A stretch of DNA of 64,000 nucleotides from the IMG/VR virus record IMGVR_UViG_3300032334_000315, positions 90,690 through 154,689 of that record; one strand, 5' to 3'. The notes beneath the pieces are model-generated. The model was given only the letters and a program-made list of their open reading frames with translations. It ran no database searches and was not told where the DNA came from. Positions 3,370 through 53,705 of the stretch are shown here, in pieces. How positions within the stretch are numbered: the first letter of the stretch is position 1; the number at the start of each line of letters is the position of its first letter. The position numbers and the translations under genes are program-made. This DNA comes from a virus.

Positions 3370-4281
3370 CTACTTCAACACAATGTCTTTTTCATACTTA
3401 TCGACAATTTTATTTATTTTATCAATTTCTTGTTGAATTTTTTCTCGTTCAAAACATCTGAGTTCATGACCAATCTTCTCAAGTAGTTTTATAAAATCAG
3501 TCGATCCACATATTTTTGGCAAAAAAATATCAAACGTCTTTACAAATTCAACTCTTTCTTTCGGTACAGAAAATCCGACAGTTGATACAAAATTAAAATC
3601 TGGAACACCAACATGTTTTCCATTAGGAATATTTGATGCTTCTAAACTAGATGATAAGATTGGTCTCAAGCCTATGATGTCTTGTGGCGAAAATATTGTA
3701 TAGTCAGCTTCGTTTACCAATATGCTTTTTGTTATTTCATATGGTGATGTGTAATTTAAATCTTTAGATTTAAAGCCAATCGACTTTAATAAAACAACAT
3801 TAAGATACGGTGTTATTGCATTTGTTGTTGTATTCCCAAAGTATACAGTTTTTCCTGAGCTAAAAAGATTTTTTAAATCATTAAACGATTTGATATTTGA
3901 TTTCGGGTTAACGGCAAGATGAAAAGGTGTTCCAGAAAAAGATTGTACTTGAACAACATCACTATTTCGATTATAGGCATTTATATTTGGGCTGGTATAT
4001 CTACCTAAAGTGACACCGGATATACCAGACCAAATCAGAACGTCTTCGCCGGCTCTGGCCGCAGATATAGCTCTAAGGGTAGCATTATCTCCACCAGCTC
4101 CTGGTATTGAAGTAAGCCGAAATTGAACATCATTCTGAATAATATTGAGTTGAGATATTACTTCTGTCCCTACAAGCATTCCAACACTGCCTGGGGTAAA
4201 CATCGAGTAAACATTTACTTCTTTTGCCATAGCACAATTTGACAATAGTAAAAAAAATAATGCAAACATTTTATTAAACAT
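3370..4281 (-). CDS. TctC/Bug-type periplasmic solute-binding protein, copy 2
   Basis: 303 residues with a signal peptide (MFNKMFALFFLLLSNCAMA). Family signals: the early FTPGSVGMLVGTEVISQLN region, SIPGAGGDNATLRAI (the PGAGG loop), and the C-terminal FSVPKERVEFV. It follows a PP-loop gene by 12 nt with a good AAGGAAA ribosome site, so the two form a unit. The same PP-loop/TctC pair is repeated in opposite orientation at 5978-8102. This gene and 4294-5496 are visibly richer in A/T than the flanking late genes, suggesting separate acquisition. Substrate unknown; no cognate membrane subunits are seen. Confidence 0.75.
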   Translation of the reverse strand: MFNKMFALFFLLLSNCAMAKEVNVYSMFTPGSVGMLVGTEVISQLNIIQNDVQFRLTSIPGAGGDNATLRAISAARAGEDVLIWSGISGVTLGRYTSPNINAYNRNSDVVQVQSFSGTPFHLAVNPKSNIKSFNDLKNLFSSGKTVYFGNTTTNAITPYLNVVLLKSIGFKSKDLNYTSPYEITKSILVNEADYTIFSPQDIIGLRPILSSSLEASNIPNGKHVGVPDFNFVSTVGFSVPKERVEFVKTFDIFLPKICGSTDFIKLLEKIGHELRCFEREKIQQEIDKINKIVDKYEKDIVLK

Positions 4282-45515: not shown

Positions 45516-45945
45516 GAGTAGTGCCGTCCTCTTCTTCCTTTGTCAAATCAAATGGGCCATGAAATACGACTTCTCTATCGGTAGCTTCCCAACCATCGTT
45601 TTCCATACCTTCGTGCCACTCTTCATCAAACAACTCTTGGATACGCTCTTGCTCTTCTTCGTCCATGTCATCAGGAAAAGTCCACGAACACGCGACGCCA
45701 TCATCAAAGCTATGATCCATCAAATCATAGTCAAGCGAATAGATATCAATACCATTATCATCATCAAGGTCAATATCCTCAACGGCTTTGAGATAATCCT
45801 TGAAATCTACATCGTCAGGAACATCGAACTTGGCATAACCCCAACGCCACCAAGTCTCGTATTCAATAACTTGCCCATCCTTATTGAAGTATTCAGTTTC
45901 CTGAATGTTTTTCTTATAGCGAGTTTCCAGCTTCCAAATTGCCAT
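45508..45945 (-). CDS. Conserved acidic phage protein
   Basis: 145 residues, very acidic (DDVDFKDYLKAVEDIDLDDD; MDEEEQERIQELFDEEW). The N-terminus MAIWKLETRYKKNIQETEYF is shared, from memory, with hypothetical proteins of many T4-like phages. No catalytic motif; strongly negative charge would suit a DNA mimic or a protein-binding adaptor, which is only a suggestion. A sigma70-like promoter lies upstream inside kdsA. Overlaps kdsA by 32 nt and the cupin gene by 8 nt. Confidence 0.6.
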   Translation of the reverse strand: MAIWKLETRYKKNIQETEYFNKDGQVIEYETWWRWGYAKFDVPDDVDFKDYLKAVEDIDLDDDNGIDIYSLDYDLMDHSFDDGVACSWTFPDDMDEEEQERIQELFDEEWHEGMENDGWEATDREVVFHGPFDLTKEEEDGTTHG

Positions 45946-46774
45946 TGTCTAACCTTTCACTTCTTTTCACTACATCATCAATCTCAAGTAAACTATACAA
46001 CAATGCGTCGAACTTGTCAAGTGCAATCATGTTCGGTCCATCGCATGGTGCATTATTTGGATTCTCGTGGACTTCCATAAACAAGCCAGCAATACCTACA
46101 GCCGTGGCTGCGCGAGCGATGAGTGGTACAAACTCACTCTGCCCACCAGAACTTGATCCATTACCACCTGGTAGCTGTACAGCATGAGTGCAATCCATGA
46201 AGACTGGGTAACCCCAATGCTTCATAATATCAAGTGAGCGCATATCGACCACGAGATTCTTATAGCCAAATGTTGTACCACGCTCAGTCAATATGATTTT
46301 CTTGCAGCCGAAATGCTCAAGCTTCTTGACTACGTTACCCATTTCTTCAGGAGCCATAAACTGGCCTTTCTTCACATTGACTGGCTTATGTGTTTCAGCC
46401 GCTGATTGAAGAAGATCAGTCTGTCGGCAAAGGAATGCAGGGATCTGAATAACATCAGCATTTGTTGCACCACATTGCCAGTTTTCATGTACGTCCGTGA
46501 GGACTTCAATGCCTCTACCACGGACGGCATCCATTCCATAATATGCCTCATCGAAGCCTGCACCTCTATAAGCAGTAGCGGATGTTCGATTAGCCTTATC
46601 GAAGGACGTCTTATAAATGAAATTGATTTCTTGACCGAAGCGTTTGCCAACGCTTTCTACGATATCACGCAGCGACTCTGCCATAAAGATAGCATGTTTC
46701 TGTGTTTCAAACGCACAAGGACCTGCAATGATGCTGAGAGGCTTAGAATTACCACACTTATCATAAAATGTCAT
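45914..46774 (-). CDS. kdsA: KDO-8-phosphate synthase KdsA
   Basis: 286 residues, full length for KdsA (about 280). It shows the family's PEP/metal-binding blocks: IAGPCAFETQ, IYKTSFDKANRTS, GIEVLTDVHE, VDVIQIPAFLCRQTDLL-like, NVKKGQFMAPEE, TERGTTFGYKNLVVDMRS and DCTHAVQLPGG. It condenses phosphoenolpyruvate with arabinose 5-phosphate to make the KDO-8-P precursor of the lipopolysaccharide inner core. The N-terminal cysteine seen in metal-dependent forms corresponds to C20 of IAGPC. No other KDO genes are seen in the window. Start overlaps the 56-residue gene (TAATG). Confidence 0.9.
   Translation of the reverse strand: MTFYDKCGNSKPLSIIAGPCAFETQKHAIFMAESLRDIVESVGKRFGQEINFIYKTSFDKANRTSATAYRGAGFDEAYYGMDAVRGRGIEVLTDVHENWQCGATNADVIQIPAFLCRQTDLLQSAAETHKPVNVKKGQFMAPEEMGNVVKKLEHFGCKKIILTERGTTFGYKNLVVDMRSLDIMKHWGYPVFMDCTHAVQLPGGNGSSSGGQSEFVPLIARAATAVGIAGLFMEVHENPNNAPCDGPNMIALDKFDALLYSLLEIDDVVKRSERLDNGNLEAGNSL
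45992..46020 (-). promoter_or_regulatory. Sigma70-like promoter inside kdsA
   Basis: Minus strand TTGACA (46015-46020), 17-nt spacer, TATAGT (45992-45997). It would feed 45508-45945, the cupin and gp33. Confidence 0.55.
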
Positions 46775-48329: not shown

Positions 48330-48405
48330 TGGCTCGGGGTGATGGGCTCGAACCACCAACACACGGATTCAAAGTCCGTAGTTCTACCAATTGAACTAAC
48401 CCCGA
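48330..48405 (-). tRNA. tRNA-Gln (anticodon UUG)
   Basis: Cloverleaf on the minus strand: acceptor TCGGGGT / ACCCCGA, D arm GTTC-AATTGGTA-GAAC, anticodon arm ACGGA-CTTTGAA-TCCGT with anticodon TTG, T arm GGTGG-TTCGAGC-CCATC, discriminator G and an encoded CCA (48330-48332). All stems are paired. It reads CAA codons. It is the only tRNA seen in the window. Confidence 0.95.
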
Positions 48406-48412
48406 ATAAAAA

Positions 48413-48637
48413 TCAAGCCTCGTTTAGAAGCTCAGCCGAACCACGAACCTGCTCACCTATGGTGCCAGGTGCATTGACGAAGCCCATGAGAACTTCGGCC
48501 TTCTTGATAACATCATTGACTGTGGGATATTTTACTGTAGCATCACGCTTGACTTCCTGACCTAGAAGATATTCTTGGTCGCACATGGTCTGTGCCATCT
48601 GGAGAACATTGAAGCGGAGCATCTTATCATCGTTCAT
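48413..48637 (-). CDS. Small hypothetical protein
   Basis: 74 residues from ATG 48637 (MNDDKMLRFNVLQMAQTMCD), preceded by AAAGGTGA; the longer frame to 48700 would enter the tmRNA. Helical, no motif. It lies between the tmRNA and tRNA-Gln and may be co-transcribed with them. Similar small proteins occur in other T4-like phages, from memory. Confidence 0.6.
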   Translation of the reverse strand: MNDDKMLRFNVLQMAQTMCDQEYLLGQEVKRDATVKYPTVNDVIKKAEVLMGFVNAPGTIGEQVRGSAELLNEA

Positions 48638-48663
48638 AATTATCACCTTTCTAATAAAGTTAG

Positions 48664-48976
48664 TGGGGGGATTCTGTTTCCACGTTCCCCCCGAACGCAT
48701 ACTTACGCTGCTAGAGCGTAAGAGATAGGTGCATTATCGTTAGCATCTAAAACGCGCCTCGGTCTACTCGTGCCTTTACTACTATCTGTCGAACCTATAT
48801 CGCCCCCATCAAAGATACACGGCCTGTATGCCTACAGTATGCAACACTACCAAGACCGCATGTTGCATTGACAACCACTAGAGTATCTTGCGTCACTCCG
48901 TGTATCCATGGTGGAGGCGTCGGGTACTGCCCCCGAGTCCAAATGGTTTATTCCGAACGTCTCAACAACCTTAGCG
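48664..48976 (-). ncRNA. ssrA: Circularly permuted (two-piece) tmRNA
   Basis: Reading the minus strand: the acceptor piece comes first and ends GACGCCTCCACCA (CCA at 48909-48911). Its T arm TCGGG-GGCAGTA-CCCGA has the non-standard loop of alphaproteobacterial tmRNA. An intervening loop follows, closed by a 9-bp stem GATACACGG / CCGTGTATC. The coding piece then starts GGGGGCG (48801-48807) and pairs with CGCCTCC over 7 bp with the G3-U70 alanine identity pair. Next come a pseudoknot region, the tag frame at 48703-48744, and a pseudoknot built from CGTTC-GGGGG-GAACG with a distant CCCCCC. It rescues stalled ribosomes and tags their products. Outer ends are approximate. Confidence 0.92.
48703..48744 (-). 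other. tmRNA tag reading frame (ANDNAPISYALAA)
   Basis: Resume codon GCT at 48744, then 12 more codons and TAA, giving ANDNAPISYALAA. ANDN at the start and ALAA at the end are the hallmarks of proteobacterial tags; LAA is the ClpXP/SspB degradation signal. Confidence 0.9.
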
Positions 48977-48979
48977 TAT

Positions 48980-49013
48980 TATTTATAATACATGGAAAGA
49001 GGGTGTTTGTCAA
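48980..49013 (-). promoter_or_regulatory. tmRNA promoter: sigma70 elements overlapping a late box
   Basis: Minus strand: TTGACA (49008-49013), 17-nt spacer, TATTAT (48985-48990). An exact TATAAATA late box overlaps it at 48980-48987. The remaining stretch 49014-49109 shows nothing else recognisable. Confidence 0.75.
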
Positions 49014-49109
49014 GCAGATAATTTCTGGCTGATGCTTCTGACCAATTGTTGATGCAGATATATCGTGGGCAATCCCAGTACATAAACATGAACGAGGTAA
49101 AATGTTCAC

Positions 49110-49802
49110 TCATGCGAACTCCGACAAACTGGCTTTAAGCCTACGCTCGTAGCCATCGCGCACACGAACCAAATCAGCCACATAATCATTTCGCTTGCCT
49201 TCAAACACATCAAAATCACCTTCGTCTGATACAATCAGAATTGCAAAGTCCAGTGTACGGATGCTAGTGTGCTCCTCGAACATGATAGAGTAAGCGGTGG
49301 CCTGTAAGAAATAATCGTGGATTTGGTCGCGTGTTTTCTGGCGTATGGATGTTTTGAAATCAACCACAGTTGGCTTGCCATTCCATTCGCAGATAAGATC
49401 GGCTGTGCCAGCAATGCGAAGAATGTCGGAATACATTGCTGATTCTGTAGCATACACCAACTGGAGATTGGTGTCAACGCATTTCTGCACCTTGCGGAAT
49501 CTTTCAACAGTGGCTGGCATTTCTTTAGCCAAATTCAAATCATCACCAAGAATATATTTCTCCATGATAGAATGAAGGGCTGTACCACGCCTAGCAGCTC
49601 CCTGGCTGATCTTATTAGCCTCGTCCGCACCCACGCGAGCGCGCCACTCCGCGATGGACTTTTTCTTTTCTGGCTGAGAAGAAAGGACAGTTGTGATTGA
49701 TGGGTAGACGTTTGCCTCAGGCGTCGAATACCGACGCCCAAGGTCTGTGTTGATCTGCTTTGCTTTTGGCAAATCTATGTGCATATCAAAGTCAAATTTC
49801 AA
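49110..49802 (-). CDS. PD-(D/E)XK nuclease (RecB/Cas4-like exonuclease)
   Basis: 230 residues. YPSITTVLSSQPEKKKSIAEW, GTALHSIMEKYI, then the nuclease core RIAGTADLICEWNGKPTVVDFKTS (D in GTADL, DFK in VVDFKTS) and a C-terminal QATAYSIMFEE match the PD-(D/E)XK exonucleases common beside PhoH in T4-like phages. Catalytic D and K are in place, with H73-type and Q residues of the RecB family (ALHSI, QATAY). Likely processes DNA ends. Overlaps the PhoH gene stop by 4 nt (ATGA). Confidence 0.85.
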   Translation of the reverse strand: MKFDFDMHIDLPKAKQINTDLGRRYSTPEANVYPSITTVLSSQPEKKKSIAEWRARVGADEANKISQGAARRGTALHSIMEKYILGDDLNLAKEMPATVERFRKVQKCVDTNLQLVYATESAMYSDILRIAGTADLICEWNGKPTVVDFKTSIRQKTRDQIHDYFLQATAYSIMFEEHTSIRTLDFAILIVSDEGDFDVFEGKRNDYVADLVRVRDGYERRLKASLSEFA

Positions 49803-51647: not shown

Positions 51648-53705
51648 TTACTTGCTGTTGGTACGGAATACGCCATCCCAATCCTTAGGTAGAGGATTCT
51701 TTTTATAGTCCTCCACGCGCTCTTTCATCATTTCATAATACTCTCTTAGATCACCACCAAATGCCGATTCGAGTACGTGGAAATAATTTTCAAGTCTGTC
51801 CCATTCCTGTGCGCGATAGTATTTGATGAAGTCTGCGTGTGTGCGAGCATACGCCTTATTGATACCAATCTTTTCAACGATGGTGTATATCTTCACACCT
51901 TCGCTCTTACCCTTCACAGCAAGGCAATCAAGTTCCACACATAGATATTCATCCTTCACATATTCATAAGTCTTAGGACCAATGACCATCTTCACATGAT
52001 ATGGCTTGCTCTGCCCTTCCAGGCGCGAGGCTAGATTGACAGTATCACCGAGGCAAGTATAATCAAAACGTTGGTTACTACCCATATTGCCAACCACAAC
52101 GGAGCCTGTGTTAATCCCAAGACCCATACCAAAGGGTGGAACACCCTCAGTGGCGATCTCTTTGTTAAATCGTTCCAAATCACCTAACATCTCCAGTGCT
52201 GTTTTAACTGCATGTAATGCATGGTCTGCGTCATCAAGTGGCGCATTCCAGAATGCCATCTGCGCGTCACCGATATACTTATCTAGTGTGCCATCGTTCT
52301 GAATTATCTTAGCTGTCATCGCTGTCATGTAGCGATTCATTATTTTCGTAAGGCCCTGTACGTCATTACCGTAATGTTCAGAGATAGTCGTAAAGCCCCT
52401 AACGTCAGTAAACATGATAGATAGCTCACGGGTCTCTCCTCCCAAGCACAATAGTTCTGGATTCTTTTGTAGTTTCTCGACTAGTGCAGGTGAAAGGTAA
52501 GTACCGAACTGCTTTTTGATTTGTTGCTTTAGTCTAAACTCGCGAGCGAAATTGTTGAATACCAAGTGCCCATATACAACAGTTATAGCCAATACGATAT
52601 AGCTTGCATCCCATAGCTGTAACTCTGTTTTGAATAAATAATAACTCGCTGCTGATACTCCAACCACAATGAAAGCGTAGAATGGAACCGTTAACGCTAC
52701 CGTCAGTCTTGGAACTATATGGAGCAATAGTAGTAGCATGGTGGTTAGTAGTGCTCCTTCTATTAGCCTTCCTACGTTGGGGCGAGAAATAGAAGTTCCG
52801 TCTACCAGTGTTTGGAGTGTCTGCGCCTGAATCTCATGGGCCCACTTCTCACCGATTGGTGTTGCTATGATACCACCAACACCTTCAATCGTTAGACCAA
52901 GAATAACAATCTTGTCCTTCACGCGAGCATCTATCTCGGTTGCTTCTAGCGTATCAAACTTGGTATTCCAAGTCAACCAGATACGACCTCTTTCATCGGT
53001 TGAGATTGGTGGAAAAGCTGGGACTCTTACAGCCTCTATTCCACCTTCGTTCGTCTTAACTTGAAAGCTAGGGTCTCCAGCAGCGACACGAATGGTCTCC
53101 AAAGGAATGCTAGGATAAAGACCAGATGCAATATTGACAAGTAGAGGCATACGGCGAACCACACCGTCCAATTCAGAGATTGTTGCGACCACACCAACGC
53201 CTGAGGCAACTTCGGCATACTGGTCAAGAGGGCGTAATCCACCAGGCCAACGATAGACAACCCTAGCAGGATCAACAGGACCGATAGCAGCGAACCCACG
53301 ACGAACCGAGTCAGGCTTACTGTTTTGAGTAGTAGGGGTTTGAGCGAGGACAACACCTTCAAGAGTTTTTGCCAGTTCATCATCGCCTCCTGCTCTATCT
53401 TTCTCAGAGAATAGAATAGGCGCAACGATTACCGAAGCGCCGTTCTCTTTTAGTTTATTGATTGTCTTTGCGATATCTCTGCGGTCAAATGGCCACTGAC
53501 CAAACTTCTCGACCGACTTCTCACCAAAGTTAACAATTACAATCTCTTCTGATTGTTTCTTCTCCAGAGAAGTTATGAAGAGGTCGAACGTATTCAATTG
53601 TAGCTTTTGTATTGGACTGGGATTGACCACATACAATGTCAACAGGAGACAGGCGCTGATGGCAACCATCCATGTGCTTGTAAGAAACTTGACTAGCTTT
53701 TCCAT
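51648..53705 (-). CDS. CHASE2-domain class III adenylate cyclase
   Basis: 685 residues. TM helix at 12-28; CHASE2 sensor about 30-300 (NTFDLFITSLE, IVIVNFGEKSVEKFGQWPFDR, IVILGLTIEG); three TM helices about 312-380; a linker; class III cyclase domain about 425-612. Catalytic residues are complete: metal-binding D434 (FTDVRGF) and D480 (KYIGDAQ), adenine-specifying K476 and D548/T550, transition-state N557 and R561 (NLASRLE). It should make cAMP from ATP in response to an outer signal. Last gene of the curli-type operon; its ATG overlaps the previous stop (TGATG). Very unusual in a phage. Confidence 0.92.
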   Translation of the reverse strand: MEKLVKFLTSTWMVAISACLLLTLYVVNPSPIQKLQLNTFDLFITSLEKKQSEEIVIVNFGEKSVEKFGQWPFDRRDIAKTINKLKENGASVIVAPILFSEKDRAGGDDELAKTLEGVVLAQTPTTQNSKPDSVRRGFAAIGPVDPARVVYRWPGGLRPLDQYAEVASGVGVVATISELDGVVRRMPLLVNIASGLYPSIPLETIRVAAGDPSFQVKTNEGGIEAVRVPAFPPISTDERGRIWLTWNTKFDTLEATEIDARVKDKIVILGLTIEGVGGIIATPIGEKWAHEIQAQTLQTLVDGTSISRPNVGRLIEGALLTTMLLLLLHIVPRLTVALTVPFYAFIVVGVSAASYYLFKTELQLWDASYIVLAITVVYGHLVFNNFAREFRLKQQIKKQFGTYLSPALVEKLQKNPELLCLGGETRELSIMFTDVRGFTTISEHYGNDVQGLTKIMNRYMTAMTAKIIQNDGTLDKYIGDAQMAFWNAPLDDADHALHAVKTALEMLGDLERFNKEIATEGVPPFGMGLGINTGSVVVGNMGSNQRFDYTCLGDTVNLASRLEGQSKPYHVKMVIGPKTYEYVKDEYLCVELDCLAVKGKSEGVKIYTIVEKIGINKAYARTHADFIKYYRAQEWDRLENYFHVLESAFGGDLREYYEMMKERVEDYKKNPLPKDWDGVFRTNSK

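Follow-up and report, generated by a model that had tools for sequence, protein, structure and literature searches.

The window, by which we mean the whole 64,000-nucleotide stretch analyzed here, is the final 64 kb of a 154,689-base (154.7-kb) virus record and carries, at positions 48662-49017 on the minus strand, a complete circularly permuted tmRNA of the alphaproteobacterial type. The gene is real and very probably functional, and the explanation that we strongly favor overall is that of a working phage-borne tmRNA that would be transcribed both early and late in infection, processed and charged by the host, and delivered by host SmpB. The features on which the analysis draws are as follows.

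48662-49017 (-): whole permuted tmRNA gene and its promoter region (Rfam alpha_tmRNA match, ARAGORN)
49008-49013 (-): -35 element TTGACA, 17 nt from TATTAT at 48990-48985 (11 of 12 sigma-70 match)
48980-48990 (-): TATTATAAATA, in which a sigma-70 -10 element, TATTAT (48990-48985), overlaps a T4-type late promoter, TATAAATA (48987-48980)
48909-48940 (-): acceptor piece, comprising the T arm (T loop GGCAGTA), the 3' half of the acceptor stem and the CCA end (sequence, Rfam alignment)
48808-48908 (-): intervening sequence (spacer) of 101 nt, closed by a stem of GGATACACGG (48907-48898) and CCGTGTATCT (48822-48813) (fold z -4.3)
48801-48807 (-): 5' half of the acceptor stem, GGGGGCG, with which the coding piece begins (sequence, Rfam alignment)
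48703-48744 (-): tag reading frame, GCT...TAA, encoding ANDNAPISYALAA plus stop (ARAGORN, direct reading)
48665-48692 (-): terminal GGGGGG/CCCCCC helix enclosing GGAAACAGAA, the putative closing pseudoknot (RF01849 conserved end, fold)
49110-49802 (-): PDDEXK exonuclease just upstream of the tmRNA, the synteny anchor (phrog_298, E 2.1e-59; Pfam PDDEXK_1)
48330-48405 (-): tRNA-Gln (UUG) downstream of the tmRNA, likewise placed in most close relatives (ARAGORN)

An earlier note on this DNA had proposed a phage-encoded permuted tmRNA and a search with the alpha_tmRNA covariance model, and its proposal holds. On this T4-like virus record, ARAGORN calls a tmRNA* at 48612-49001 (-) with the tag ANDNAPISYALAA, the same tag that had been read by eye, and positions 48662-49017 match Rfam alpha_tmRNA (RF01849) over its full length (model positions 1-355) at 107.3 bits (E 2.5e-28; gathering score, 50 bits) and tmRNA_permuted (RF04321), also at full length, at 93 bits (gathering score, 47). 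In the permuted order, the acceptor half (48940-48909) comes first, followed by the spacer (48908-48808) and then by the coding half from 48807. The acceptor piece terminates in CCACCA, whose CCA occupies 48911-48909 as read from the sequence; GGGGGCG (48807-48801) pairs with CGCCUCC (48919-48913) as the acceptor stem, which contains the alanine identity pair G3-U70 (G 48805 with U 48915). All of the parts that the note had listed (the CCACCA end, the GGCAGTA T loop, the 7-bp acceptor stem and G3-U70) are present, and in the intervening stem, given there as 9 bp, the nine Watson-Crick pairs are joined by one further G-U pair. The closing helix (48692-48687/48670-48665) forms in the fold and corresponds in the Rfam alignment to the conserved end of that model (RF01849), and the acceptor and intervening stems are stacked in the predicted precursor fold (z -4.3 for the 140-nt core and -3.1 for the 312-nt precursor).

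Genes in the record include those for a gp32-type protein, a baseplate wedge, PhoH, an exonuclease and the late sigma factor gp55 (phrog_234, E 4.2e-60); SmpB was not found in the virus record. PhoH, the PDDEXK nuclease and the tmRNA follow one another at 50587-48662, and relatives of this neighboring PDDEXK exonuclease at 33 IMG/VR loci have a permuted tmRNA close by in 32 cases, 25 of them detected by ARAGORN and a further 7 by Rfam. The baseplate and CHASE2-cyclase proteins have their closest counterparts among isolates, at 34-44% identity, in Melnitz and in the Pelagibacter phages HTVC008M and Mosig. The 685-aa CHASE2 and guanylate-cyclase protein itself (51648-53705, minus strand), which is 42-44% identical to the Melnitz and HTVC008M versions, is a phage-encoded cyclic-nucleotide enzyme, and a DAHP synthetase I family protein (45914-46774, minus strand; PF00793, E 3.6e-61), possibly KdsA-like, is a metabolic gene on a phage. 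The region of tRNA-Gln(UUG) (48330-48405, minus strand) is 98% identical to positions 3836-3920 of a relative, L097, the other matching DNA of which is ~67-77% identical.

The tag has the ANDN start and ALAA-like end of host tags. It recurs identically in 10 related contigs among the 32 exonuclease-locus tmRNAs, and other tags at this locus include ANDNALIETRLAA, ANDNAPVAMALAA and AANDNVASQVRLAA, with the ANDN start and an (A/R)LAA-like end conserved and the middle variable. Given these 10 relatives and the closeness of the alphaproteobacterial host tags ANDNAPIALAA and ANDNRAPVALAA, we dropped the view, taken in the earlier note, that the middle of this tag is unusual.

The sigma-70/late double promoter that had been noticed upstream of the gene proved to be an arrangement conserved among phage copies. 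No other promoter match in the stretch is better than TTGACA-N17-TATTAT (11 of 12), which overlaps one of eight copies of TATAAATA in the window, a count reached by 4 of 100 shuffles. Comparison with the list of open reading frames places all eight just upstream of genes; only at the tmRNA and gp32 does TATAAATA occur together with TTGACA, the other six sites being without it, and gp32 is the sole other gene in this window to have both signals. In a set of 112 distinct viral permuted tmRNAs, TATAAATA precedes the acceptor piece at a fixed distance in 61, against 0.5 predicted from its same-strand density; the fixed-place motif is present in 31 of 62 sequence clusters and, in a larger set that includes Melnitz, in 91 of 164 phage copies. 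TTGACA (at least 5 of 6 positions) lies upstream in 71 of these 91 (3.3 expected), nearly always 17 nt away. The sigma-70 -10 element sits 3 nt upstream of TATAAATA in close relatives of the window, such that the two overlap, and in other phage copies a single TATAAATA appears to serve as both the -10 and the late promoter. Of 80 host copies, only 6 show a -35/-10 pair of this sort, and none of the 29 host copies checked has TATAAATA at the fixed place. We detected no link between TATAAATA and a nearby gp32 (Fisher p 0.54).

This conserved dual promoter is a new, comparative result and suggests that the tmRNA is expressed both early and late in infection. Because TATAAA itself resembles a sigma-70 -10 element, the late reading rests on the excess of TATAAATA, the gp55 homologue and the late-type sites elsewhere in the genome. 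Late-only expression, which we initially favored, was dropped once the TTGACA-N17 partner was found to be conserved. The arrangement gives a testable answer on timing, in that the tmRNA should be produced throughout infection, like gp32.

In trees of the mature parts, 63 of the 66 phage copies separate from the alphaproteobacterial copies sampled, as do 50 of 55 in trees without most of the promoter flank; supports are moderate, a motif was used to select the loci, and the host sample is not certain to include named SAR11 genomes. We conclude with moderate confidence that most phage tmRNA copies represent a lineage separate from the sampled host copies. The tmRNA is not a safe guide to the host, contrary to the earlier note: Melnitz has an ssrA of the alphaproteobacterial type and yet its host, OM43 Methylophilales, is a gammaproteobacterium; with phage copies also branching apart from host copies, we rejected this assignment. 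The genome of Microvirga lenta contains two near-identical permuted tmRNA copies above the cut-off and a weak third match (L193, L225, L322 and L323 are this genome and a related pattern hit), and its copy, which in the trees falls with a few phage tmRNAs, may be of the phage type. When genomes were scanned with the T-loop pattern relaxed, most matches were standard tmRNAs.

The interior of the spacer between the halves has been exchanged even among phages whose mature parts are nearly identical. Between DSS3P8 and V10, the mature parts are 99.3% alike and the spacers 65%; the corresponding values are 98.9% and 51% for L036 and L055 and 96.6% and 64% for the window and L417, with random spacer pairs averaging 42%. 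A spacer-closing stem of at least 8 bp is found in 79% of the phage copies, compared with 24% of those from hosts and 2% of shuffles, and its arms vary jointly between relatives, the sequence changing and the pairing being kept. As a phage-only trait the stem is weakened by the fact that hosts exceed chance (24% versus 2%) and that the gap shrinks at matched spacer lengths.

Some phage spacers contain open reading frames (ORFs) led by a Shine-Dalgarno sequence (L288, L045, L295, L280, L305, L258, L291, L266 and L300, as well as L429, L450-L458 and L530, the last being Melnitz). Several families of these ORFs have substitutions in third codon positions, a sign of purifying selection (in one example, 9/2/27 by codon position, with 29 synonymous versus 4 changed codons). 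One spacer protein of 69 aa has 290 IMG/VR relatives; among the best 80 of these 290, nine are encoded between the two halves of a tmRNA, and most of the rest are free-standing. The L429 spacer encodes a 144-aa relative of HNH homing endonucleases (phrog_655, E 1.1e-14), and in L045 and L050 the AGGAGA lies within the spacer stem. The ORF in the Melnitz spacer, which is unannotated, has the product MFKWLSKTRLVVITRDYF... and is related to other spacer ORFs (the shared 35 residues are alike); compared with L266 alone, its codon-position counts are weak (4/4/8). The window's own 101-nt spacer has no Shine-Dalgarno-led ORF. A literature search by titles and abstracts found no report of ORFs in the spacers of phage permuted tmRNAs, and the paired ends, swapped interiors and ORFs together constitute a new result, comparative in nature. 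We lean slightly toward the view that the phage tmRNA spacer is a protected cargo site, in which the pairing of the ends would hold the halves together while the interior is exchanged and can carry protein genes (the HNH homing-endonuclease relative and small membrane-protein-like ORFs); with the ribosome-binding site sometimes in the stem, how the precursor folds or is processed may govern translation, and the window would carry an allele without an ORF. If this is true, protein genes in spacers would form an unusual gene-in-RNA-gene arrangement, which the isolated phage Melnitz would allow to be tested.

From the anatomy of the gene, the conservation of its promoter, its synteny and the presence of gp55, all read in the sequence, we infer how transcription might be timed and how processing, charging, SmpB use and benefit to the phage might follow. 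Early in infection, host RNA polymerase with sigma-70 would read the tmRNA from TTGACA-N17-TATTAT, and later, gp55-programmed polymerase would read it from the overlapping TATAAATA. In the precursor, the acceptor stem would stack on the intervening stem, and host tRNA-processing enzymes would excise the spacer, leaving a two-piece RNA that host alanyl-tRNA synthetase could charge. The record has no SmpB, so the phage tmRNA would depend on the host's to deliver it to stalled ribosomes, where A-ANDNAPISYALAA would be added, the ribosome freed and the peptide marked for Clp proteolysis. It is plausible that the phage tmRNA thereby keeps ribosomes running as host mRNA is destroyed.

Three other accounts of the gene were weighed. 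That it is an early-only gene recycling host proteins, as proposed for Melnitz (PMC9004378), agrees with the consensus TTGACA-N17 promoter, but 91 of the 164 phage copies, that of Melnitz too, have TATAAATA overlapping the -10 at a fixed place, where same-strand density predicts ~0.5 per 112, and we regard this account as unlikely. Distinctly unlikely, in our judgment, is an interfering RNA that competes for SmpB/EF-Tu or redirects tagged proteins by means of a different tag, rather than rescuing ribosomes: the tmRNA of phage DS6A, which has little beyond the tRNA-like domain, inhibits host tmRNA (PMC4131195, PMC11915505), and the tag middles of phages differ from many host tags, but the tag frame, stop codon and ALAA-like end, unneeded by a decoy, are intact and conserved.

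The gene might instead be a passive and functionless relic, a host ssrA copy acquired by imprecise excision or integration, given that tmRNA genes are common integration sites and that ssrA fragments occur in prophages (PMC9004378). The window gene is complete, however, with a conserved phage-type promoter; one locus keeps a tmRNA in 32 of 33 relatives, and the phage copies branch as a lineage of their own, away from the host copies sampled. Such conservation makes a relic highly improbable, an origin that, from these comparisons, appears already largely refuted. A functional tmRNA, transcribed early and late, remains the explanation that we prefer.

Permuted tmRNAs on phages have precedents. 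A two-piece SsrA is annotated in Methylophilales phage Melnitz (MZ577097), whose authors treat it as an early gene and identify 53 two-piece tmRNAs across phage genomes, marine or aquatic samples being the source of 50 (PMC9004378). We also found permuted tmRNAs without annotation in the records of DSS3P8 (L003, 2938-3359), V10 (L004), RcXuper (L005), Erythrobacter phage L02 (L002), CcrBL9 (L531), MD18 (L532) and Cp1R7A-A1 (L533), with unusual tags among them (ANINNAPMEMAIAA and VNDNDVVVARDEVRLAA). In the roseophages DSS3P8 (L003, 2344-2777), V10 (L004, 2344-2777) and MD18 (L532, 238-705), the tmRNA is immediately preceded by GOLLD RNA.

The window gene belongs to a known kind, since Melnitz has the same order of PhoH, PDDEXK nuclease and SsrA, with small ORFs in between. 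Both are T4-like phages with a CHASE2-cyclase gene and a permuted tmRNA after PhoH and the PDDEXK nuclease, and Melnitz, whose tag is ANDNYVPVDYALAA, likewise has TTGACA-N17-TATAAATA upstream. They differ downstream, where Melnitz has a glutamine riboswitch and a late-transcription coactivator and the window a 74-aa ORF and tRNA-Gln, and in the spacer, which contains an ORF in Melnitz but not in the window. The roseophages DSS3P8, V10, RcXuper and MD18, Erythrobacter phage L02, Caulobacter phage CcrBL9 and Mesorhizobium phage Cp1R7A-A1, all phages of alphaproteobacteria, resemble the window in carrying a permuted tmRNA; unlike that of the window, these seven are away from the exonuclease locus, with no TATAAATA upstream in the copies checked and with tags such as ANINNAPMEMAIAA. 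With the Caulobacter-type two-piece tmRNA (RF01849), the window gene shares its gene order, acceptor stem with G3-U70, type of T loop, tag start and end, and terminal helix, whereas it differs from alphaproteobacterial host tmRNAs in its spacer (101 nt versus a host median of 36), its phage promoter and its separate lineage.
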